Virus record (IMG/VR): IMGVR_UViG_3300032828_000005 | Span: 1 to 35,751 of that record | DNA from: a virus | Length of the DNA: 35,751 bases | Direction: 5' to 3' (one strand) | Part shown: piece by piece, positions 4,449 through 33,092 of the stretch | Layout of the letters: each line of letters starts with the position of its first letter | Position numbering within the stretch: position 1 is the stretch's first letter | Translations under genes and position numbers: made by a program | The notes under the pieces: model-generated | Databases searched by the model: none | What the model saw: the letters and a program-made list of their open reading frames with translations, nothing else | What the model was told of the DNA's origin: nothing

Positions 4449-6364
4449 GCCGCGACCAATTCCCCTCGCTTCATCCGTTCAAATTCTCGCAATTCAGCGG
4501 CCCAGTAAAGTTTTTCGCCGCGGGCGCCTTCCTCAACGGAAGCGGGGAACAGCGACTGGCTGCCCGTGACCCTGGCCTTGCGTTCCTCGCGGAGCTTCTG
4601 CTGCCGCAGCCCGTTCGGGTTCCACGTCGTGATCACCCCCCGCTCGCACGCCTCGGTGAACCCGATCGGCCGGTCCCGAAGATCGTCGGCGGCCGGTGTA
4701 ACAGGTACCGGGACATGTGCGGATTCCAGGGCTGGCCTGGGGTTCGTACCTGTTACATGCCCGGTTTCGCCCGATTCGAGGGCTGGCGTAACGGGCTTGG
4801 CGATGCCCTGCGGGATGCCATCGGGGACAGGTGTCACAGAGCCTGCCAGGGCCAGCTGACGGGCCTCCGGGCCTGCCCGGCCCTTCGGGTTCAGGAACCC
4901 GACCTGCACAAGCTCGACGTTCCCGCCGTCCACCACGTAATGCCGCCCCGGGACGGATTGCTTAGCGGGCCTTACGACATCTTTAGCCAGCATGTCCCAA
5001 CTCGGCGGAGACGACTGGCCACCCATCAGCAGCCCGGCGCAGTTCTCCCGCGCCGCGCCGTCTTTACCGCCGAGCGCAGCGACAGTCAGCTTCTGCGCGA
5101 TCAGCAGGAAATGGACACCCAGCGCGCGGCCAGTGAAGAGCAGCTCCCGCAACGCCGCCACAGCCGGTGACTCCCCGCGGCCATCGATACCTCTCGGCGG
5201 GGGATTCTTCCAATAGTCCTTGAGCTGCTGAATCGTGGCGTTCAGTTCTTCCGCCACCACGAAAATAGGCGGCCCGATATCACCTGTGATTGTCCCGTCC
5301 ATCTGGATACCGGCCAGCGCGCGCGCTTTCCGCCGCGCGACCTCCTCCAGCAGCCACAGCAGGCTCAGGTGGATCTGCTCCGGTGTCCCCGCATAGCTCA
5401 GGTTCGGCATCTTGAACAGGGCCCACGGATGACTGATCCACTTGTAGTCGAGGATGATGCAGATCGCCCCGTGGAACATCATCTGCGCGGCCAGCAGCTC
5501 ACCGCACACGCTCTTACCACCGCCGGATGGGATCGACAGGCCCCAATGCGGCAGGTCCCCACCCAGTGACCGCTTCACCAGCACGCCGTTTACGCCGTAC
5601 CCGATCATCAGCTCGTGCCACTCGGCGGCCTCGATAGCCTCCCGCAGCCCCGGGATGCCCTTCCGCGGGTCGCCGTCGAGAAGCACCAGCGGCGGCGGGG
5701 GCGGCAGCGCAGCCTCGAACTTCACATGCCGGCGTTTACCGGACAACACGGGCTGCATCCTGGGTTCGTTGTCGACGAACACCGTCTGCGCCACGACCCG
5801 CTGCACCACCTCGAGGGCCTTCGGTGACGCATCGAAACGATCAGGCAGGTACACCGTTGCTGTCTGCCGGTCCCGCGGCACCTCGAGCCAATCCCGCGGT
5901 TTCGCCGTACGCGACTCACCAACCGGTTGCCACAGGCGCTCGTGCAGCGGCGAGAGGACTTCCCGGCGGTGCTCACGCGCCGCCGGGGCCAGCTCCCGCC
6001 GCGCCACAGCCACACCCAGCGCCGCCGCACCGGTCGCCGACACCGCCCCGGCCCACGCAACGGCCAGCGGATCAGCTGCTGCGGCCACCGCCACGAACAG
6101 CACGCCGGTCGCGGTGCCGCACCGCTGCGCCGTCCGCAGCGCCCGCGGGCGCTCGTAGAACTTCCGCACGCGCCGGTTGCTGGCCGCCTCGCCCTTGCTT
6201 AGCCAGGACGCGTTGGTCTCCTGTGTCCCGTCCCAGCGCAGCCCAGTGAGCCACCAGCCGACACGCACCGCCAGCGGCGTCTTCGACAGGCCGTGCCGGG
6301 CGGTCCCGAACAGCACCCAGACCACGGCAACCGCGACCACCAGCACAAACAGGACAAATCCCAC
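4445..6364 (-). CDS. FtsK/SpoIIIE-family DNA translocase, Tra-like
   Basis: 639 residues from a GTG that overlaps the upstream stop (TAGTG). Hydrophobic segments lie at about 2-20 and 86-120, which would anchor the protein in the membrane. A proline-rich linker (221-225) leads to the motor domain: Walker A 'PSGGGKS' near 279-285, the FtsK-type 'IILDYK' near 303-308, and a Walker B strand 'PIFVVAEELNAT' near 366-377 in which the usual Asp-Glu is Glu-Glu. A later 'HFLLIAQKL' strand completes the core. The C-terminal 150 residues are low in order, with repeated 'PALES' and 'HV' words. It would pump double-stranded DNA, as TraB/TraSA proteins do in streptomycete conjugation. It is clearly not the host's cell-division FtsK, given its short length and operon. 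A DNA-packaging or segregation role cannot be excluded. Confidence 0.8.
   Translation of the reverse strand: MGFVLFVLVVAVAVVWVLFGTARHGLSKTPLAVRVGWWLTGLRWDGTQETNASWLSKGEAASNRRVRKFYERPRALRTAQRCGTATGVLFVAVAAAADPLAVAWAGAVSATGAAALGVAVARRELAPAAREHRREVLSPLHERLWQPVGESRTAKPRDWLEVPRDRQTATVYLPDRFDASPKALEVVQRVVAQTVFVDNEPRMQPVLSGKRRHVKFEAALPPPPPLVLLDGDPRKGIPGLREAIEAAEWHELMIGYGVNGVLVKRSLGGDLPHWGLSIPSGGGKSVCGELLAAQMMFHGAICIILDYKWISHPWALFKMPNLSYAGTPEQIHLSLLWLLEEVARRKARALAGIQMDGTITGDIGPPIFVVAEELNATIQQLKDYWKNPPPRGIDGRGESPAVAALRELLFTGRALGVHFLLIAQKLTVAALGGKDGAARENCAGLLMGGQSSPPSWDMLAKDVVRPAKQSVPGRHYVVDGGNVELVQVGFLNPKGRAGPEARQLALAGSVTPVPDGIPQGIAKPVTPALESGETGHVTGTNPRPALESAHVPVPVTPAADDLRDRPIGFTEACERGVITTWNPNGLRQQKLREERKARVTGSQSLFPASVEEGARGEKLYWAAELREFERMKRGELVAA
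4697..4757. repeat. 12-bp inverted repeat inside the FtsK gene
   Basis: TGTAACAGGTAC (4697-4708) and GTACCTGTTACA (4746-4757) are perfect inverse complements around a 37-base spacer, in the low-complexity C-terminal part of the gene. The GTAACAG word recurs in a second inverted pair at 6739-6785, in the same operon. Confidence 0.55.
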
Positions 6365-10785: not shown

Positions 10786-11078
10786 CCAGCGTGACCGCGG
10801 GGCACGCGGGCGGGACGTGGGGGCTGTGCCCGGAATGCCGCCGCCCGCGCCGCCTCACAGACCGGAACGTGATGCGCCTGCACAGCAAGTGGGACGGCGC
10901 GGCGCGGGGGATGGTCCGCTGTGAGGGGTCCGGGCAGCGGCCGACACCTGCCGCGGCGACCTGCGTTGTCTGCGGTGACCCGATCCCCTACAGCGGCAAC
11001 GAGCAGCAGGGCCGCGAATACTGCTCCGCCTCGTGCCGCGGCCGTGGCCGCCGTGACGCACTGAAGGCCATGGGCTGA
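10782..11078 (+). CDS. Zinc-finger hypothetical protein
   Basis: 98 residues from an ATG overlapping the previous stop (ATGA). Two metal-type clusters are visible: 'LCPECRRPRRL' near residue 15 with a partner Cys in 'VRCEGSG', and 'CVVCGDPIPYSG...YCSASCRGRGRR' near 60-90. Treble-clef-like proteins of this kind are common in phage recombination operons. It is followed at once by the YqaJ exonuclease gene (TGATG). Confidence 0.6.
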   Translation: MTSVTAGHAGGTWGLCPECRRPRRLTDRNVMRLHSKWDGAARGMVRCEGSGQRPTPAAATCVVCGDPIPYSGNEQQGREYCSASCRGRGRRDALKAMG

Positions 11079-11998
11079 TGGGCGCCTCCCTCGTTGTGCC
11101 CGGAACCGCGCCGGAGGCGGACTGGCACGCAGCCCGCGCCTCCGGTGTGACCGCCAGCGAGATAGCGGCCGTCCTCGGCCTGTCGTCGTTCGAGTCACCG
11201 TTTTCGCTGTACCACCGCAAACGCGGCGACCTCGGCCCGCAGCCGGACAACGACGCAATGTCCCTCGGCCGCTACCTCGAGGCGTTCGTCGTGTCCCGGT
11301 TCATCGAGCAGCGGCCAGACCTCGACGTGACCGGCGACGGCCGCACCCTGTACGCCTCCCCGGACCGGCGGTGGCAGCTGGCCACACCGGACCGCCTCGT
11401 CTGCGAGGCAGGCGGCGGCCTGACCGCTGTGCTCGAGTGCAAGACCACGGCCAGCTACGACGGGTGGGGCTACGGCGGCGACGAGATCCCGGTGGCCTAC
11501 CGCTGCCAGGTGCTGTGGCAGATGGACGTCATGGCCGTCACCACCGGCTACGTGGCCTGCCTGTTCCTCCACACCCGCAAGCTGCGGATCTACCAGCTCA
11601 CCCTGGGCGGGCAGGAACTGGAAGACCTCGAGGTGATGCGCCTCGAGGCCGGGGAGTTCCTCCGCAGGGTCGCGAGCGGCGACCCGCCGCCCGTCGACTG
11701 GGCACCCCCGACGACCGCCGCGCTGAAACGGCTCCACAACACCACAGACGGCCCGGACGTGATCGTGCCGTGGAAACTGGGCCGCGACTACCAGGCCGCC
11801 TGCGCCGCCGTGAAACGCGCCGGGCAGCGTAAGAAGCTGGCGGAGAACCGGATCAGGGAACGCCTCGGCGACGGCTGCACCGTCTGGTGCGGCACCGAGA
11901 TCATCGCTTCCCGCCGCATCTACCAACGCGGCGCATACACCGTCAAAGCCGCCACCATCGACGCCCTCTACCCCGCCAGGAAACCGGAGACACCGTGA
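11078..11998 (+). CDS. YqaJ-type viral recombinase exonuclease
   Basis: 306 residues. Residues 15-50 carry the family N-terminus ('DWHAARASGVTASEIAAVLGLS', then 'SPFSLYHRKRGDL'). The nuclease core is at 95-160: 'SLGRYLEAFVVSRF' earlier, then 'LATPDRLV' (D) and 'AVLECKTT' (ExK), the PD-(D/E)xK residues of lambda-exonuclease-like enzymes, followed by 'YRCQVLWQMDVM'. It degrades one strand of linear dsDNA to make 3' single strands for the RecT protein encoded next, with which it overlaps by 4 bp. Length and order are typical of a Red-like pair. Confidence 0.88.
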   Translation: MGASLVVPGTAPEADWHAARASGVTASEIAAVLGLSSFESPFSLYHRKRGDLGPQPDNDAMSLGRYLEAFVVSRFIEQRPDLDVTGDGRTLYASPDRRWQLATPDRLVCEAGGGLTAVLECKTTASYDGWGYGGDEIPVAYRCQVLWQMDVMAVTTGYVACLFLHTRKLRIYQLTLGGQELEDLEVMRLEAGEFLRRVASGDPPPVDWAPPTTAALKRLHNTTDGPDVIVPWKLGRDYQAACAAVKRAGQRKKLAENRIRERLGDGCTVWCGTEIIASRRIYQRGAYTVKAATIDALYPARKPETP

Positions 11999-13137
11999 CA
12001 CAGACCGTCACAGGCGCCCTCGCGCGCCGCGACGAAAGCCCCGTCAAAGTCATGTGGGCCAGGCGCGGCCACCTACGCGCGGTGCTGCCCGCATCTGTCG
12101 ACGTCGAGGCATTCCTCGGCACCGCAGCCGGGGCGCTGTACGCCAGCCCGGACCTGATGGCCGCCGCCGCGGCCAACCCCGACTCGCTGATGACCGCCCT
12201 CATGCGCTGCGCCTCACTCGGTCACCTGCCCGGCACCGACGAGTTCTACCTCACCCCACGCAAGATCAAAGGTAAAGCAACCGTTCAGGGCCTCGAGGGC
12301 TACCGGGGGATCATCGAACGGATGTACCGGTCCGGTGCCGTCGCTAAAGTCGTCGTCCGCGAGGTCTGCGCCGGGGACGAGTTCTCCTACATCGAAGGTG
12401 TCGACACCCGCCCGCGGCACGGCGTCAACTGGTTCGGCAGCTCACGCGGGCAGATGATCGGCGTCTACGCCTACGCCGAGCTGGTGACCGGCGCCGTGTC
12501 CCGCGTCGTGATCCTCAACCGGGCCGATGTGATGGCCGCCCGTGACTCCTCCGACGCGAAAGACTCATCGTTTTCGCCGTGGAACCGGCTCGACGGCGGG
12601 AAAGAACACCCCGAGCTCGCGGGCCGGTCGATGTGGTGGAAGACCGCGGCGCGCCGCCTCGAACCGTGGGTGCCGACATCCGCTGAGTACCGGCGTGAGC
12701 AACTCCGCGCCGCCGCGCAGGCCACCGCCGCGCAGGCCCCTGAGCAGTGGCCGGTAGCCGAATACGCCGACGCTGAGATCGTCCCCGATGCGCCCGCCGC
12801 CGCCGCCATCCCGGCCAGCGGCGGGCCGGTCACCGCAGAACCACCCGAGGCCGGTGATGTTCACGGTGACCAGGGCCCGGCCGCTGACGCGCAGACGGCG
12901 GCCGGGCCCCCCGGCCACGGCCCGGCCGCCGTCATCCGGCAGCATTTCCTCCGCCTCGGATACGACGACAACGACCCCGCGCAGAAAGCCGAGCGTCTCA
13001 AGTTCACCGCGCGCCTCGCCGGGTCCGGCCCGATCAGAACCACCAGTGACCTCAACGCCGAGCAGGCCCGCAAGGCCGCCGCCGCGCTCGAGCAGTGCAA
13101 AGACTTCGCAGCCCTCCTCGAGCTGGTGAAGTCATGA
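11995..13137 (+). CDS. recT: RecT-family single-strand annealing protein
   Basis: 380 residues from GTG 11995, overlapping the exonuclease stop. The frame runs open upstream, but only as a shadow of that gene. Conserved RecT words are present: 'DSLMTALMRCASLGHLPGTDEFYLTPR', 'QGLEGYRGIIERMYRSGAV', 'VREVCAGDEFSY' and 'SMWWKTAARRLEPWVP'. Residues 250-310 are Ala/Pro-rich and disordered. The last 70 residues ('VIRQHFLRLGYDDNDPAQKAERL', 'SDLNAEQARKAAAALEQ') form a helical tail like those added to some actinobacterial RecT proteins. It would anneal homologous single strands during phage recombination and replication. Confidence 0.88.
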   Translation: MTQTVTGALARRDESPVKVMWARRGHLRAVLPASVDVEAFLGTAAGALYASPDLMAAAAANPDSLMTALMRCASLGHLPGTDEFYLTPRKIKGKATVQGLEGYRGIIERMYRSGAVAKVVVREVCAGDEFSYIEGVDTRPRHGVNWFGSSRGQMIGVYAYAELVTGAVSRVVILNRADVMAARDSSDAKDSSFSPWNRLDGGKEHPELAGRSMWWKTAARRLEPWVPTSAEYRREQLRAAAQATAAQAPEQWPVAEYADAEIVPDAPAAAAIPASGGPVTAEPPEAGDVHGDQGPAADAQTAAGPPGHGPAAVIRQHFLRLGYDDNDPAQKAERLKFTARLAGSGPIRTTSDLNAEQARKAAAALEQCKDFAALLELVKS

Positions 13138-15673: not shown

Positions 15674-15837
15674 CCAAACGCCGTGGGTTCCCCTTCGATC
15701 AGACGTTCGTGGACGAGCTACTCGACGCAGCCGACCAGTTCGCGACCACTGAAGCGCGCATCCGCTCACAACGCCTCGGGATCCTCGACCAGGCAACCTG
15801 CACCACCCGCCCGCGGCAACACGCCAAAACGGCATGA
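15631..15837 (+). CDS. Hypothetical 68-residue helical protein
   Basis: ATG 15631 lies inside the end of the previous gene (43-bp overlap), with CGGAGACCGACC before it. The sequence is helical ('MDREQLEAAIWRAMTKRRGF', 'DQTFVDELLDAADQFATTEARIRSQRLGIL') with a Cys at residue 57. It has no recognised domain. The next gene overlaps by ATGA. Confidence 0.6.
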   Translation: MDREQLEAAIWRAMTKRRGFPFDQTFVDELLDAADQFATTEARIRSQRLGILDQATCTTRPRQHAKTA

Positions 15838-16055
15838 GCTCGGGCAATTACGCGTCCGCCGCGGGGTGGAACCACACCGGCAAACCGAACGACATCCACG
15901 CCGCCACAGCCGCCTGCTGGCAGGCGGACGAACCACGCGGCCGGGGCGTCTACCTGGCCGGGCTGTGCGTCGTCTGCGGGCGCGCCACCACCCGCCGCAA
16001 CCGCGACGGCCAACCCCAGCACCACCAGCTCATACCGGCAGGAGCCGCAGCGTGA
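15834..16055 (+). CDS. Hypothetical 73-residue protein with CxxC
   Basis: ATG 15834 overlaps the previous stop. 'NYASAAGWNHTGKPND' is followed by 'GLCVVCGRATTRRNRDGQP', so one CxxC is present and a Cys at about 28 may assist. The last third is encoded by the left copy of the 58-bp direct repeat. Its stop overlaps the methyltransferase GTG. After a deletion between the repeat copies the same overlap would fall on the next gene instead. Confidence 0.6.
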   Translation: MSSGNYASAAGWNHTGKPNDIHAATAACWQADEPRGRGVYLAGLCVVCGRATTRRNRDGQPQHHQLIPAGAAA

Positions 16056-16057
16056 CG
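16000..16057 (+). repeat. 58-bp direct repeat, left copy (methyltransferase cassette)
   Basis: Matches 16706-16763 at 57 of 58 positions (G against A at 16038/16744). It includes the 3' end of the 73-residue gene, a CAGGAG ribosome site and the GTGACG start of the methyltransferase. Confidence 0.9.
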
Positions 16058-16786
16058 CCCCCACCAATGACACCCGTCCGGCCACGCATGAACCGGCCAC
16101 GGCTACTGGACCTGTTCTGCGGGGCAGGCGGCGCCGGCATGGGCTACCACCGCGCAGGGTTCGACGTCGTCGGAGTCGACATCGCGCCGCAACGCCACTA
16201 CCCCTTCGAGTTCGTCCAAGCAGACGCGATGACCTACACGCTCGACGGCTTCGACGCCATCCACGCGTCGCCGCCATGCCAGGACCACATGCGCACGCCG
16301 CACCCCAACCGCCATGGCACCGGCTGGATGCTGACAGCGATCCGGAGACGACTCAAGGCGGCCGGCGTTCCGTGGGTGATCGAAAATGTACCGGGCGCGC
16401 CGATGCGGGCCGACTACGAGCTGTGTGGCTGCATGTTCAGCCTTCGGAACCTACGGCGTAGCCGCTGGTTCGAGACGTCGTGGGACGGCTTCGAAATGCA
16501 CCTGTGCCACGACCACACCGAACCAGCGATAAGCGTGGTCGGGCACGGTACGCCGACCTGGGTCCGACAGAAACTCGGCTACAACCCGACCATCGCGCAG
16601 TACCGGGCGGCCATGGGCATCACATGGATGAACCGTAACGAGCTCTCGCAGGCGATCCCGCCCGCCTACACCGAGCACATCGGCCGCGCGCTGCTCGATC
16701 AGGTGACCGCGACGGCCAACCCCAGCACCACCAGCTCATACCGACAGGAGCCGCAGCGTGACGAACCTACCCGCCGCCCCAGGTGA
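16052..16786 (+). CDS. C5-cytosine DNA methyltransferase
   Basis: 244 residues from GTG 16052 with CAGGAG before it; ATGs at 16067 and 16088 are alternatives. Motif I 'LLDLFCGAGGAGMGYHRAGF' binds AdoMet. 'ASPPCQ' (Cys near 76) is the catalytic loop, 'VIENV' (109-113) is motif VI, and 'QAIPPAYTEHIG' near 200-211 is motif X-like. The target-recognition region is very short, as in compact phage Dcm-type enzymes, and no clear QxRxR motif was seen. No partner restriction gene is present, so self-protection against host restriction is likely. The final 27 or so residues are read through the right repeat copy and are probably not part of the original fold. The gene sits between the two repeat copies as a cassette. 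Confidence 0.85.
   Translation: MTPPPMTPVRPRMNRPRLLDLFCGAGGAGMGYHRAGFDVVGVDIAPQRHYPFEFVQADAMTYTLDGFDAIHASPPCQDHMRTPHPNRHGTGWMLTAIRRRLKAAGVPWVIENVPGAPMRADYELCGCMFSLRNLRRSRWFETSWDGFEMHLCHDHTEPAISVVGHGTPTWVRQKLGYNPTIAQYRAAMGITWMNRNELSQAIPPAYTEHIGRALLDQVTATANPSTTSSYRQEPQRDEPTRRPR
16706..16763 (+). repeat. 58-bp direct repeat, right copy
   Basis: The second copy supplies the ribosome site and GTGACG start of the following gene. The copies start 706 bp apart. Recombination between them would remove exactly one unit containing the methyltransferase and leave the flanking genes joined by a GTGA overlap. Confidence 0.9.
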
Positions 16787-17354
16787 CGTCCTGGCCGTCT
16801 GCACCGGCCACACCACCATCGAAAACCTCATCCGCGCAGGCGAAGCACTCCAAGGAAAACCCGCCATCGCGAACCACGTTGCGATCGTCACCCACCAGGA
16901 CGCGGCCGGGCGCTGGATCGGCATCGAAGGCAGGCCCGGCGGCGTCGGCCCCTGCGACTGCACCCCGTACCTCACGAACCCCGACACGCGAACCAACCAC
17001 GACCAGCCCCGGCCGAACGACCAAAAGCAGACACCGGTGTTCCTGGCCAGCTGCGTCAAGTCACTCGGCATCGCCTACGACTGGGCAGGGATCGCTGAGG
17101 ACGCCCTGAACGCCCTCCACGTCGAGGACCTAGCCCAGGCCATCAACCCGCTCTGGCGGTGGCCTGCAGACCACAACAGGCTCCCCGGGCACGTCGTCTG
17201 CTCAAGTCTCGCCGCGATGCTGTACAACCTGCCCCAAGTCGGCTGGGCCCACCCAAACGAAGGCTACGAACGCACCTGCGAACCCGCCGACTGGTGGAAC
17301 TGGTCAGCCACCTGCGCGTGGCTACGAACACGACAGGCAACCGATGCAACCTGA
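16758..17354 (+). CDS. Permuted NlpC/P60-like (YiiX-type) papain-fold protein
   Basis: 198 residues from GTG 16758. Residues 8-60 have 'GDVLAVCTGHTTIENLIRAGE', 'IANHVAIVTHQDAAGRWIGIEG' (His in strand). A Cys helix comes late: 'HVVCSSLAAMLYNLPQVGW' near 154-172. His first and Cys second is the circularly permuted order of the YiiX/C92 group of papain-fold enzymes. The end is Trp-rich (DWWNWSATCAW). It could be an amidase or acyl-modifying enzyme; no signal peptide is seen. It is not placed with the lysis genes but in the early/middle operon, so a role inside the infected cell is possible. Confidence 0.6.
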   Translation: MTNLPAAPGDVLAVCTGHTTIENLIRAGEALQGKPAIANHVAIVTHQDAAGRWIGIEGRPGGVGPCDCTPYLTNPDTRTNHDQPRPNDQKQTPVFLASCVKSLGIAYDWAGIAEDALNALHVEDLAQAINPLWRWPADHNRLPGHVVCSSLAAMLYNLPQVGWAHPNEGYERTCEPADWWNWSATCAWLRTRQATDAT

Positions 17355-18221: not shown

Positions 18222-18515
18222 ATGCCCTGGCGACCGGAAGACCGCGGCACCGGGGCCACCTACGGCACCGCATGGCGGAGAGCCCGGAAAACCCAGCTCG
18301 AGCGGGATAGCTACCGATGCCAGCTGCAGCTACCCGGCTGCACACACCGGGCCACCACCGTCGACCACATCACCCAGGCAGCCAACGACCCAGCACACCG
18401 GCACCTGAGAAGCCTCTGCGAGTCATGCCACCGCAAAGTCACAGCCCAGCAAGGCGGCGGATGGCGTCGGGGCACAGCCCAGGACCCAGACCCGCAGCCA
18501 CGCACAGCATGGTGA
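18222..18515 (+). CDS. Small HNH endonuclease
   Basis: 97 residues. 'TAWRRARKTQLERDSYRCQL', 'GCTHRATTVDHITQAANDPAHRHLRSLCESCHRKVTAQQ' gives Cys pairs (33 and 39; 67 and 70) around the DH and the final H of the HNH fold. Proteins of this size and form near terminase genes of HK97-like phages assist cos cutting during packaging. The large terminase lies 1.5 kb to the right on the opposite strand, beyond the non-coding region that may contain cos. The last residues are part of a duplicated sequence. Confidence 0.75.
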   Translation: MPWRPEDRGTGATYGTAWRRARKTQLERDSYRCQLQLPGCTHRATTVDHITQAANDPAHRHLRSLCESCHRKVTAQQGGGWRRGTAQDPDPQPRTAW

Positions 18516-18516
18516 C
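18479..18516 (+). repeat. 38-bp imperfect direct repeat, left copy
   Basis: Matches 18774-18811 with four differences in 38 positions. It covers the C-terminal codons and stop of the HNH gene. The right copy ends in the same GTGAC, 295 bp downstream. Confidence 0.7.
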
Positions 18517-18832
18517 CACCCCTGAATCCTCACCGGCCGCTCCAGGACCCGCCGCGGGAGGGACCCCAGTCCTCCCAGGACCCGGACCATCCCCCGCAAT
18601 CACTGATCCGAACTCAACTGCCAGACCGCCCGGCCGCGAGCCCACCGGCCGCCTGCCGTCAGCCCTGCCGAACCAGTTCACGCCGGCCGCCCGGCCCAGG
18701 ACAACCGGCACAGGAGAGTCCCCTGCCAAACCATGCACCGGAAGGACCCAGCCCAGGGCAGGACCCAGCCCCACCAGGACCCACACCCGCAGCCACACAC
18801 AGCACAGTGACGAGCAGGCACTCGATGCTTGA
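18512..18832 (+). CDS. Pro-rich low-complexity hypothetical protein (doubtful)
   Basis: 106 residues from a GTG overlapping the HNH stop (GTGA). The composition is almost entirely Pro, Thr, Ser, Ala, Gly and Arg, without a predicted fold, and repeated CCAGGACC words run through the DNA. The frame may be translated as a disordered protein, or the stretch may be a degenerate duplication of the HNH gene end. Confidence 0.3.
   Translation: MTTPESSPAAPGPAAGGTPVLPGPGPSPAITDPNSTARPPGREPTGRLPSALPNQFTPAARPRTTGTGESPAKPCTGRTQPRAGPSPTRTHTRSHTQHSDEQALDA
18774..18811 (+). repeat. 38-bp imperfect direct repeat, right copy
   Basis: Second copy of the HNH-end repeat. It lies just before a TTGACA hexamer at 18829-18834 and the non-coding region. 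Confidence 0.7.
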
Positions 18833-22139: not shown

Positions 22140-23533
22140 AGTCTGCGCTGCGCAGGTTGCTGCCGAAAAACGAGGGCCCGCCTGTGCCTGTGGGTAATTC
22201 CGGGTTTTACAAGATGCCTGGGATGGCCCTCGGGGCGGATTCGTCTGAGGCGTACATGCGGTCGTTCGGCACGGTGGGCACGGTGTGGCAGATCGTGCAT
22301 CTGTTGTCGTCGAGCGCTGCGAAGCCGCAGTGGCGGCTGTACCGGTCACCGAAGGCGGACGGCCGTCAGCGGTACACGACCAGCGATCAGGGCTCGGATC
22401 AGCGGGTCGAGGTTGTGAAGCATCAGGCGCTGTCGGTGCTGTGCAAGCCGAACGCGTTCTGGTCCCGGTTCGCGCTGTTTGAGGCGAGCCAGCAGTACCT
22501 GGAACTCACAGGGGAGTCGTACTGGGTGGTCGAGTACGACCCGCGGGCGTCGTTCCCGGTCGGGCTGTGGCCGGTGCGCCCGGACCGGATCGAGCCGGTG
22601 CCGGACCCGGAAACCTACCTGAAAGGTTGGGTTTATACCGCGCCGGACGGCCGTGAGAAGGTGCCGCTGCAGGTCCGCGAGGTCATCCAGGTCAAGTTCC
22701 CGAACCCGCTGGACGCGTATCACGGCCTCGGGCCGGTGCAGGCGGTGCTGGTCGACATCGACGCCGCGAAGTATTCCGCCGAGTGGAACCGGAACTACTT
22801 CCTCAACTCGGCGACACCAGGCGGCGTCATCCAGGTGGATCACCGCCTGGACGACACAGAGTGGGATGAGCTGACTAACCGCTGGCGGGAGTCGCACCGC
22901 GGGGTGGCGCGGGCGCACCGGGTCGCTGTGCTCGAGGCCGGGGCCACGTGGGTGCCGAACTCGCACACGATGCGTGACATGGACTTCGGGAACCTGCGGA
23001 ACGTGTCCCGGGACCTGATCCGTGAGGCCTGGGGCATCCACAAGATCATGCTCGGTAACTCCGACGACGTGAACCGCGCGAACGCCCAGACCGGTGAGGA
23101 AGTGTTCGCTAACTGGTCGATCGTGCCCCGGCTGGACCGGTGGCGCGACGCGCTCAACGAGCAGTTCCTGCCGCTGTTCGGCTCGGCAGGTGAGGGCGTC
23201 GAGTTCGACTACATCTACCCGCTTCCGGCGAACCGGGAGCAGGACAACATGGAACTGACCGCTAAGTCAGCTGCGGCTCAGGCGCTGGTCGCCGCGGGAT
23301 TCGACCCGCATGACGTTCTCACCGTCGTCGGCCTGCCTGATATGGGCGTCGCTGAGCAGGCGCAGCAGGTTCCAGGCGCGCTGCCGCCCGCCTGGACATC
23401 CGGTGCGCCAGCGCCCGCCCCGGGCGCGGCCCCTGGCGATAAGACGCCTGGGGCGGGCGCTGGCCCACCGGACATGGAAAGCAGGCTCCGGAAGATGCTC
23501 GCAAACGGCCACATGAAAGTGGAGGCCCGATGA
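22136..23533 (+). CDS. Portal protein, HK97 type
   Basis: 465 residues from GTG 22136. Typical portal words are present: 'VWQIVHLLSSSAAKPQWRLYR', 'YLELTGESYWVVEYDP', 'PVGLWPVRPDRIEPV', 'NPLDAYHGLGPVQAVLVDID', 'RNYFLNSATPGGVIQ', 'DMDFGNLRNVSRDLIREAWGIHKIMLG' and 'EEVFANWSIVPRLDRWRDALNEQFLP'. The C-terminal 60 residues are Pro/Ala/Gly-rich. It forms the dodecameric DNA channel at the capsid vertex, docks the terminase and is followed by the maturation protease, as usual. Confidence 0.92.
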   Translation: MKSALRRLLPKNEGPPVPVGNSGFYKMPGMALGADSSEAYMRSFGTVGTVWQIVHLLSSSAAKPQWRLYRSPKADGRQRYTTSDQGSDQRVEVVKHQALSVLCKPNAFWSRFALFEASQQYLELTGESYWVVEYDPRASFPVGLWPVRPDRIEPVPDPETYLKGWVYTAPDGREKVPLQVREVIQVKFPNPLDAYHGLGPVQAVLVDIDAAKYSAEWNRNYFLNSATPGGVIQVDHRLDDTEWDELTNRWRESHRGVARAHRVAVLEAGATWVPNSHTMRDMDFGNLRNVSRDLIREAWGIHKIMLGNSDDVNRANAQTGEEVFANWSIVPRLDRWRDALNEQFLPLFGSAGEGVEFDYIYPLPANREQDNMELTAKSAAAQALVAAGFDPHDVLTVVGLPDMGVAEQAQQVPGALPPAWTSGAPAPAPGAAPGDKTPGAGAGPPDMESRLRKMLANGHMKVEAR

Positions 23534-30312: not shown

Positions 30313-30393
30313 ATGGTGACTCAGCGTGCGCTCGACATGGCCGCCTCCGGCGGCGGGGGGGTGAGCTCGTGGCCGTCGCTATTGATGCGGTAG
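30313..30393 (+). CDS. 26-residue leader peptide (possible)
   Basis: ATG 30313 after GGAAGGACGG. The peptide is 'MVTQRALDMAASGGGG' plus a short end (VSSWPSLLMR). It overlaps the start of the 907-residue gene by 25 bp, so its translation may open or couple that start. No similarity is recognised. Confidence 0.35.
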   Translation: MVTQRALDMAASGGGGVSSWPSLLMR

Positions 30394-33092
30394 GACCCTC
30401 CTCCGCCGGCGCCGGCAGCGGCGGCTCAAACTCGCTGAACTGGACGCACACCGCCGCCGGCGGCCCGGTGGCGCTGCTCGTCGGCGTAACACTGGGCACC
30501 GCTAACGACAGCGGGAACGACTTCACCGTCACCTGCGACAGCGTCCCCATGACCCTGATCGACGGTCCTATCCACGGCAACAACTCGATTTACGGGTTCA
30601 TCAAGGTCTACGGGCTGACCGGCATTTCATCCGGCGCGCACGCCATCGCCGTCACCGTGAGCGGGACGACCCCGACCGGCCTGGCCGGCGGTTCGGTTTC
30701 GTTCACCGGGGCGGCCAGCTTCGGAACGGCCTATGACGCAGTCGGGAACAGCGCCACATCCAGCGTCGCAGTCCCCGCAAGCACTACCGGCGGCATCATC
30801 TTCGCGCTCGTCGGCACAGGGCACGGCAACGAGGCTGCAACCAGCCCGGCCACGCTCCAATACCTGAAAGACGAGGCGCTCAACACAATCGGCAACTGCG
30901 CCGCCGAGACGACCCCCTCGACCGGCGGCGCCGTCACCGTAGGGTTCACGCAGGACAGCAACTACTGGGCCATCATCGCGGTGGAAGTCGTGCCTTCCCC
31001 GCCGCCGCCGCCGCCGGTCCCGCCGCCGCCGCTGCTGATGCCGCCCGGCCTGTCGTCCCCCGCCGCCTGGCAGTTCGCCCCGGCCCCGCAGATGGGGGCG
31101 GCGCCTTCAACCGAGACAGTCGTCATCCCCCCGCCGCCTGCGCTGCCGGCTTCGCCGCTGATGCCGCCCGGCCTGTCGTCCCCGGCCGCCTGGCAGTTCG
31201 CCCCGGCCCGCCCGGTGACAGCGCAGGCCGCGCCGCCCGTCGTCATCACCACGACAGGTGCGACGTTCAGCCCGGTCGTCGCACTCAAGGCCGGCTCGGC
31301 GGCCACAGTCACCTGGTCCTGCGCCGGGTTCACCAGCCAGACCGGCGTCAGCCCGTCGTTCAGCTTCGGCTCCGCGGCGACCCGCACCGTCAACATGACC
31401 GTGACCGGCGGCGGCGGCTACGCCGACGTCACCCTGTTCAACGTCGGCTACGACAACACGGTCGACCCCGGCACCTACATGCCGCCGAGCGGGTACGCCA
31501 AAGCCGCCGAGTCCGTGTCGGGCATCGCGAACATCAACTCACTCACCGGCCTGATCTACTTCCTCGCCGACTTCACGCCACTCGCCGGCGTCATCGACTT
31601 CACCGGCATGTCGGCGCTCCAGTTCGTTGAGTGCTTCGGGTCGGACATCAACGGGGTAACCCTAACCGGCTGCACATCGCTCATACGGCTCCAGATTGAG
31701 GCGTGCAACCAGAACCGGCCACTGGACCTCAACCCGGTCGCAGCTAACCTGCGCGACCTGCGTTCCGCGATCCAGCAGGGCGGCCGGCTGGAGTTCGTCA
31801 CGCTCACCTCCCCCATGGCCGCCCTTTACCATTTCTGCGTCCGTGACCAATTTCTCGTCAACCCGCCCACCCTGGCCAGCTTCCCCGTGTTGCAGCAGTT
31901 CTGGACCTGGAACGGCGGCAGCGCCCAGCCCGTCAACGCGTACTCGTACGAGCTGTCATTCAGCTCGGATGCGCTATTGGACGTCGTCTCGTACCAGAAC
32001 CAGTGGTCGAGCGCGGACCTGACGGGCATTTTCCCGGCTAGCCGCGACTCGGCGTCACTCCCGTTCGGCACCAACAACGTCCGGTGCGACCTGCACAACA
32101 ACCGGCTGACTTCGGTGATCCTGACGGGCTGCGAAGGCCTCCAGAACATCGACTTCTCGTTCAACCGGCTCGGCACGGCGATGGTCGACTACGTGCTCAC
32201 CGCCGCCGCCGGCTGGGGAACGAGCAACGGCGCCCTCGACCTGCGCAGCAACGCGCCGCCGACCGCCGCCGGCACCGCCGCCGCGGCCACCCTCACCGGC
32301 CGCGGCTGGACCGTCAACGTGGACTCGCCGGCCACCATCACCTACCCGTGGCGGCTGCTGGACGGCGTGTCCGGCCGGCCCGGCGTCGGATCTTCCGGCA
32401 CGCAGCCGCCGTCCGCCAGCACGGCCGGCGGACCGCTATGCGCGAGCATGTCGATCAAGGTCACCTGCGCCGGTTCGCTCCTGGCCGGCTACTACGTGTG
32501 GCGGGCCGACAGCGCGCAGGCCGCGAACTGCGACGTCGCGCTGTGGGTCGTGACGGGCCTGAACACCGGCACTCTCGTCCCTGCCTCCCACGTGCCGCTC
32601 GCCGGGATGACCGCCGGCCAGTTCAATTACGCGCCGCTCGCGGCCCCCATCCCGCTGGCGGAGGGCGCGACTTACGCGGTCGTCGCGGGCTTCCCCGGCA
32701 ATTTCCCCTGGACCAACAGTCAGCTCGACGGCGTCAAGCACCCCTACGGCACGGGCATCGCGAACGGCCCGCTGTTCGCGTTCTCGTCGTACCTGGGCGT
32801 CAACCCGGACCCGTACAACGACGACCAGTCCCGCTACACCACCGGCAACGCCGACCCGACCGCGACTTTCCCTGTCACCTCGTTCGGCTACGCACTTTTC
32901 TGGGTAGACGTCCAGGTCACCCAGGGGCCGCTCCCGGCGCCGCCGCCGCTGGTACCACCCGCGCCGTTCACCCCGATGGGCCTGCAGTGGCGGACCAGGC
33001 CACCCGGCCCTATCCCCTTCGTGGCACGCCCCGGGACAGTCACCGTCACAACTACCCCAGCGGCTACAGTTATCGTCAGCACGACGATATGA
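30369..33092 (+). CDS. Large multidomain head-fibre or adhesin-like protein
   Basis: 907 residues from GTG 30369 (GGGGGGG upstream). Residues 1-208: a beta domain ('NSLNWTHTAAGGPVALLVGVTLG', 'YWAIIAVEVVPS') like those of secreted or virion lectin-type proteins. Residues 209-285: Pro-rich linker with a 17-residue unit (LMPPGLSSPAAWQFAPA) occurring twice, at 223-239 and 264-280. Residues 290-345: an Ig/PKD-like beta domain. Residues 360-640: Leu-rich repeat-like strands ('ALQFVECFGSDINGVTLTGCTSLIRLQI', 'LTSVILTGCEGLQNIDFSFNRL'). Residues 690-860: 'ASMSIKVTCAGSLLAGYYVWRA', 'CDVALWVVTGLNTGTLV', 'YAPLAAPIPLAEGATYAVVAGF', matching the DUF4082 pattern. It ends with another Pro-rich 'FTPMGLQWRTRPPGPIP'. 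It is encoded among head genes, so head fibre or surface attachment is likely. Confidence 0.65.
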   Translation: MAVAIDAVGPSSAGAGSGGSNSLNWTHTAAGGPVALLVGVTLGTANDSGNDFTVTCDSVPMTLIDGPIHGNNSIYGFIKVYGLTGISSGAHAIAVTVSGTTPTGLAGGSVSFTGAASFGTAYDAVGNSATSSVAVPASTTGGIIFALVGTGHGNEAATSPATLQYLKDEALNTIGNCAAETTPSTGGAVTVGFTQDSNYWAIIAVEVVPSPPPPPPVPPPPLLMPPGLSSPAAWQFAPAPQMGAAPSTETVVIPPPPALPASPLMPPGLSSPAAWQFAPARPVTAQAAPPVVITTTGATFSPVVALKAGSAATVTWSCAGFTSQTGVSPSFSFGSAATRTVNMTVTGGGGYADVTLFNVGYDNTVDPGTYMPPSGYAKAAESVSGIANINSLTGLIYFLADFTPLAGVIDFTGMSALQFVECFGSDINGVTLTGCTSLIRLQIEACNQNRPLDLNPVAANLRDLRSAIQQGGRLEFVTLTSPMAALYHFCVRDQFLVNPPTLASFPVLQQFWTWNGGSAQPVNAYSYELSFSSDALLDVVSYQNQWSSADLTGIFPASRDSASLPFGTNNVRCDLHNNRLTSVILTGCEGLQNIDFSFNRLGTAMVDYVLTAAAGWGTSNGALDLRSNAPPTAAGTAAAATLTGRGWTVNVDSPATITYPWRLLDGVSGRPGVGSSGTQPPSASTAGGPLCASMSIKVTCAGSLLAGYYVWRADSAQAANCDVALWVVTGLNTGTLVPASHVPLAGMTAGQFNYAPLAAPIPLAEGATYAVVAGFPGNFPWTNSQLDGVKHPYGTGIANGPLFAFSSYLGVNPDPYNDDQSRYTTGNADPTATFPVTSFGYALFWVDVQVTQGPLPAPPPLVPPAPFTPMGLQWRTRPPGPIPFVARPGTVTVTTTPAATVIVSTTI

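Follow-up and report, generated by a model that had tools for sequence, protein, structure and literature searches.

A predicted cytosine methyltransferase gene between two copies of a gene junction in a phage genome

Gene gain at duplicated junctions

Gene gain and loss by duplication of gene junctions is a process already known in phages. Island3 has a gene 68 that is absent from Brujita and whose last 18 residues duplicate the C-terminus of gene 67 (Pope et al. 2011, PMC3029335), and comparison of both sequences here revealed a 65-nt repeat (57 of 65 positions identical) that is single copy in Brujita, with flanks identical at 149 of 150 positions on each side. In LRRHood, genes 43 to 46 lie between 29-bp direct repeats (PMC3029335), and gene 14 of Corndog lies by itself between copies of a repeat found once in relatives (PMC4351075). 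Short conserved boundary sequences and Rad52-like phage recombinases have been proposed as agents of mosaicism (PMC3029335, PMC3945230). In Salmonella, the wzy locus undergoes reversible excision between 113-bp direct repeats, with both excision and reversion measured (PMC12074656).

The locus described here is an unusually clean further example of this process. It lies in a 35,751-bp record of an uncultured phage, classed as linear, which we refer to as the window; its gene content is actinobacteriophage-like (RecT, terminase, portal, capsid, and a WhiB gene). The defining trait of the Island3 gene 68 type is present: a single gene stands between two copies of the upstream 3′ end together with an RTGA start overlap, and, again as in Island3, the C-terminus of the enclosed gene is encoded by the right copy. 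The 2 systems differ in frame, since the Island3 unit of 257 bp (2 mod 3) keeps the upstream frame, so that gene 68 ends on the C-terminal residues and stop of the upstream gene, whereas the unit here is 706 bp and the frame is shifted. The copies in our window are also more alike (57/58) and the cargo is an identified methyltransferase, but an empty form is known for Island3, in Brujita, and not for this locus. The LRRHood genes are similar in being extra genes between direct repeats that are single copy in relatives, although there are 4 of them and the repeat is shorter, and the 17-bp direct repeat of Corndog is much shorter than ours. The mechanism we propose is the one put forward for mosaicism, recombination at short homologies at gene borders. 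Salmonella wzy, lost by way of direct repeats and regained from a donor, provides a model of what a reversible form would look like, but it is a bacterial locus in which excision and reversion were measured. Relative to the published cases, this locus has a closer match between copies, an identified cargo, and a frame-shifted tail.

The repeated junction and the genes that share it

The direct repeats occupy 16000-16057 and 16706-16763, 706 bp apart, and are identical at 57 of 58 positions, exactly as the original prediction had it; they and all genes of the locus are on the plus strand. Comparison of the copies places the sole mismatch at 16038 (G) and 16744 (A), dividing the repeat into exact runs of 38 bp, the longest, and 19 bp. 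In the methyltransferase frame this difference is silent (CGG/CGA), and in gene A it would turn Ala into Thr; a lone mismatch of this kind fits a recent event, although it proves nothing. Each copy takes in gene A’s final 17 sense codons and stop codon along with a Shine-Dalgarno sequence and the GTGACG start of gene B, so the coding 3′ end, ribosome site, and start predicted for the repeat were found, with AGGAG and GTG in both copies. Among 71 candidate RTGA junctions in the whole window this one scored 55, the next independent ones scoring 26 (at 18512) and then 16 in a ranking that leaves out the repeat’s own partner entry. The pair is not a product of chance. A scan of related viral loci totaling about 1.18 Mb turned up no other near-identical repeats flanking a gene, tandem arrays and paralogues aside. 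A 35-bp repeat in L023 was rejected as a junction, being a coding motif common to paralogues, and 2 related viral contigs (L024, at 474-584 and again at +659; L031, at 2518-2595 and again at +2501) each have a closely spaced pair of methyltransferase paralogues belonging to this family.

Gene A (15834-16055) is complete and encodes a small CxxC protein of 73 aa whose last 17 sense codons and stop fall in the left copy. In this copy, AGGAG stands 7 nt upstream of the GTG at 16052, which overlaps gene A’s TGA. The right copy has an identical AGGAG leader and a GTG at 16758, the start of gene B (16758-17354, 198 aa). Gene B belongs to a family of unknown function conserved in more than 20 viral contigs, with invariant H40, H46, and a YDW motif at 107-109; it has no match in Pfam or PHROG and no homologues in phage records or bacterial genomes, and its structure prediction (pLDDT 36) is too poor for use. 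Its VT start aligns without gaps with its homologues, the nearest of which start VT or MT at the same column: the closest, L105, L107, L109, and L111, begin ATGACA, GTGACC, GTGACC, and GTGACC at the aligned position. Because these homologues begin (A/G)TGAC, the GTGACG of the right copy is probably gene B’s own, and A-B is probably the older order, with the junction native to it and the methyltransferase a newcomer.

The ORF between the 2 junctions runs from the GTG at 16052 to a stop at 16786, 29 bp inside gene B, and its 244-aa product is a C5-cytosine DNA methyltransferase as predicted from its motifs, a phrog_363 match (3.5e-38), and its predicted fold. Motifs I, IV (PCQ), VI (ENV), VIII, and X of the m5C class were found, with PPCQ, ENV, and QAIPPAYTE intact, and the match to Pfam PF00145 reached 19.5 bits, under the 22-bit curated cutoff. 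The fold also fits the class: the predicted structure has good confidence to about residue 222, and its best matches are DNMT3 and M.HaeIII. The GC content of the gene does not stand out.

Both ends of this protein are unusual for its family. Alignment places the core common to relatives at residue 13 to about 218 (16088-16705), and similarity at the DNA level extends only over approximately 16086-16710; the first 12 and last 25 or so residues have no counterpart in an alignment with 30 relatives. After IPPAYT there are 37 residues here versus a median of 16 in 80 relatives, and only 4 of those are longer. The C-terminal 25 or so residues are gene A sequence in another frame, encoded by the right copy, which the methyltransferase reads in the third frame, used by neither A nor B. 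This frame and the shorter C-termini of relatives bear out the earlier claim that the C-terminus is read through the right copy. Since neither extension has a counterpart in relatives, both ends are best read as fusions: the start is joined to GTGACG and roughly 30 bp of unassigned sequence, the end to gene A’s tail. With a unit of 706 bp, or 1 (mod 3), the methyltransferase is neither fused to B, as at 0 (mod 3), nor ended on A’s stop, as at 2 (mod 3).

If one unit is deleted in silico by a script, A (73 aa) and B (198 aa) are left intact with a GTGA overlap, as had been predicted. The product that keeps the left copy has A and B letter for letter exact, and the product that keeps the right copy has one Ala of gene A replaced by Thr. 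With both genes restored in this way, scarless removal of the methyltransferase is supported in principle.

Probable insertion at the A-B junction, and rival explanations

Our preferred reading, which we hold to be likely though well short of settled, is that the methyltransferase gene was inserted at the A-B junction by recombination with duplication of that junction, in a form from which it could be lost cleanly but regained only from a donor. In the order of events that we infer, the ancestor would have had A followed directly by B with a GTGA overlap, and a methyltransferase gene from another phage would have been added at this point, leaving the junction (A’s tail, the ribosome site, and B’s first 2 codons) on both sides of it. 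The newcomer would then be translated from the ribosome site and GTG of the left copy as an in-frame fusion to B’s first 2 codons and would cross the right copy out of frame. That copy would still give B its ribosome site and start. A and B both remain intact. The claim of insertion with junction duplication, already made in the original prediction, is supported by the confinement of homology to the interior of the unit, by the (A/G)TGAC start of gene B, and by the full and empty forms of Island3 and Brujita. One counterpoint is that GTGACG could instead be native to the methyltransferase, since methyltransferases of this family often start (V/M)T.

Searches of viral contigs and phage records turned up neither an empty A-B site nor any detectable homologue of gene A, and near relatives of the record are missing from the collections searched. 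An exact 21-mer of the repeat likewise had no match in the viral contigs. The relatives closest by capsid, reaching 89% (L132), are short contigs that do not include the region, and in the longer ones A, B, and the methyltransferase are missing from this place. More than 80 relatives carry the methyltransferase without such a repeat, so the objection anticipated in the original prediction holds by half, but they carry it at other places in the genome. The idea that methyltransferases of this kind lie between repeats as a rule was rejected, since 82 relatives scored like control positions. The differing places of the gene in related phages (L052/L089, L090, and L096) fit mobility of the gene.

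A challenge to insertion comes from L019, where at 4989-6199 a methyltransferase is followed directly by a gene B homologue, with an ATGA overlap, an AGGAGG leader, and no repeat. The methyltransferase-B pair may accordingly be older than the repeat, which would count against the insertion model. If A-methyltransferase-B, or methyltransferase-B, were the older order, template switching or gene conversion could have copied the A/methyltransferase junction onto the methyltransferase/B junction, replacing the methyltransferase stop and B’s old leader, and such a history would suit the observation that, of the 2 joints, the right one alone is clearly foreign to this family of methyltransferases. 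This explanation nonetheless leaves the 12-residue N-terminal extension unaccounted for and sits poorly with the gap-free alignment of B’s own VT start, and L019 is not close (56% identity to the methyltransferase of the window and 39% to gene B). Because identity is this low and the other gene B homologues examined have no adjoining methyltransferase, the pairing in L019 possibly arose independently, and we regard the older-order history as unlikely, if still a serious competitor. A scenario closer to our own has a donor phage that already possessed A, or its tail, before its methyltransferase, so that a single illegitimate crossover joined the methyltransferase end to A’s tail in an A-B recipient. 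This would need just one new joint, and methyltransferases of this kind can have a small CxxC gene ahead of them, overlapping at GTGA (as in L052), but no A homologue was found beside any methyltransferase, and the scenario, which we think improbable, departs from insertion at the A-B junction only in the history of the donor.

The remaining alternatives are weaker. The window is a single metagenome contig, and a mixed population could conceivably have produced an assembly artefact, but the copies differ at one base, their longest exact run is just 38 bp, and the genes on either side are intact, as are the motifs of the methyltransferase, which makes this very improbable. A dedicated site-specific switch or integron-like cassette might be suggested by direct repeats on either side of a single gene whose translation start comes from the repeat. 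The 58-mer is, however, plain coding sequence of gene A and folds no better than its shuffles (z of −0.08 and −0.97), which rules against a structured recombination site; no GTTRRRY attC core was seen in it on either strand, so that an integron gene cassette, which would need both that core and a single strand that folds, was rejected; and the genes tested included no recognizable site-specific recombinase. We give this possibility almost no credence. A transposon with target-site duplication was rejected as well, since the unit holds the methyltransferase alone, without transposase or terminal inverted repeats. A 58-bp duplication also far exceeds the usual target duplications of transposons.

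Possible loss and regain, and a second, weaker repeat pair

The window encodes machinery that could act on these repeats: a YqaJ-type exonuclease (11078-11998, plus strand; PF09588, 1e-19), the presumed partner of a RecT single-strand annealing protein (11887-13137, plus strand; PF03837, 3.2e-25; phrog_148) that is a candidate agent of recombination between them. Published minimal pairing lengths are 23 to 27 bp for Red-beta and 31 to 34 bp for RecA (PMC3945230), and the perfect 38-bp run exceeds both. Because the YqaJ and RecT genes are present and the exact run is longer than these minima, annealing of the 2 copies is a plausible route to loss of the methyltransferase. At 58 bp, the repeat would be long enough for clean removal of the gene by the exonuclease and RecT or by host RecA, and A joined directly to GTGACGAACCTACC would be the form after such a loss, or the empty ancestor. 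Regain would proceed through recombination with a methyltransferase-positive genome. The recombining agent, loss and regain, and the direction and frequency of the insertion event are inferred.

The reversible on/off cassette of the original prediction, on the other hand, is not supported. When direct repeats recombine the gene is deleted, and the genome has no means of restoring it; the methyltransferase is present and not switched, and its loss is one-way unless a donor returns it. As inserted by the route we favor, it would be a clean, apparently recent example of a phage adding a gene without breaking tightly overlapping neighbors, in which the duplicated junction equips both the newcomer and the displaced gene with a ribosome site and start. 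The locus offers a single defined site, its cargo identified, where the contribution to mosaicism proposed for short boundary homologies and phage annealing proteins can be tested.

A second repeat pair lies downstream, where 18479-18516 recurs at 18774-18811, 295 bp away, with 34 of 38 positions identical. It contains the end of an HNH-like gene (18222-18515; a label from reading the sequence, with no Pfam match) and GTGAC, and the enclosed proline-rich ORF (18512-18832, starting with GTG) crosses the right copy in a different frame. We read this as a second, weaker junction duplication in the window; local expansion is an alternative origin, because the stretch between the copies is rich in proline and contains short motifs that recur. 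It is conceivable that this lineage repeatedly gains genes by junction duplication (at 16052 and, more decayed, at 18512) and sheds them through YqaJ/RecT, with host restriction pressure keeping a mix of methyltransferase-plus and -minus genomes, but we consider so broad a scheme improbable. Elsewhere in the window, an 82-nt repeat (88%; 31005-31086 and 31128-31209) lies inside a predicted minor tail protein gene (30369-33092), and a 28-bp inverted repeat (23399-23472; 93% complementary, 18-nt loop) lies near the end of the portal gene.
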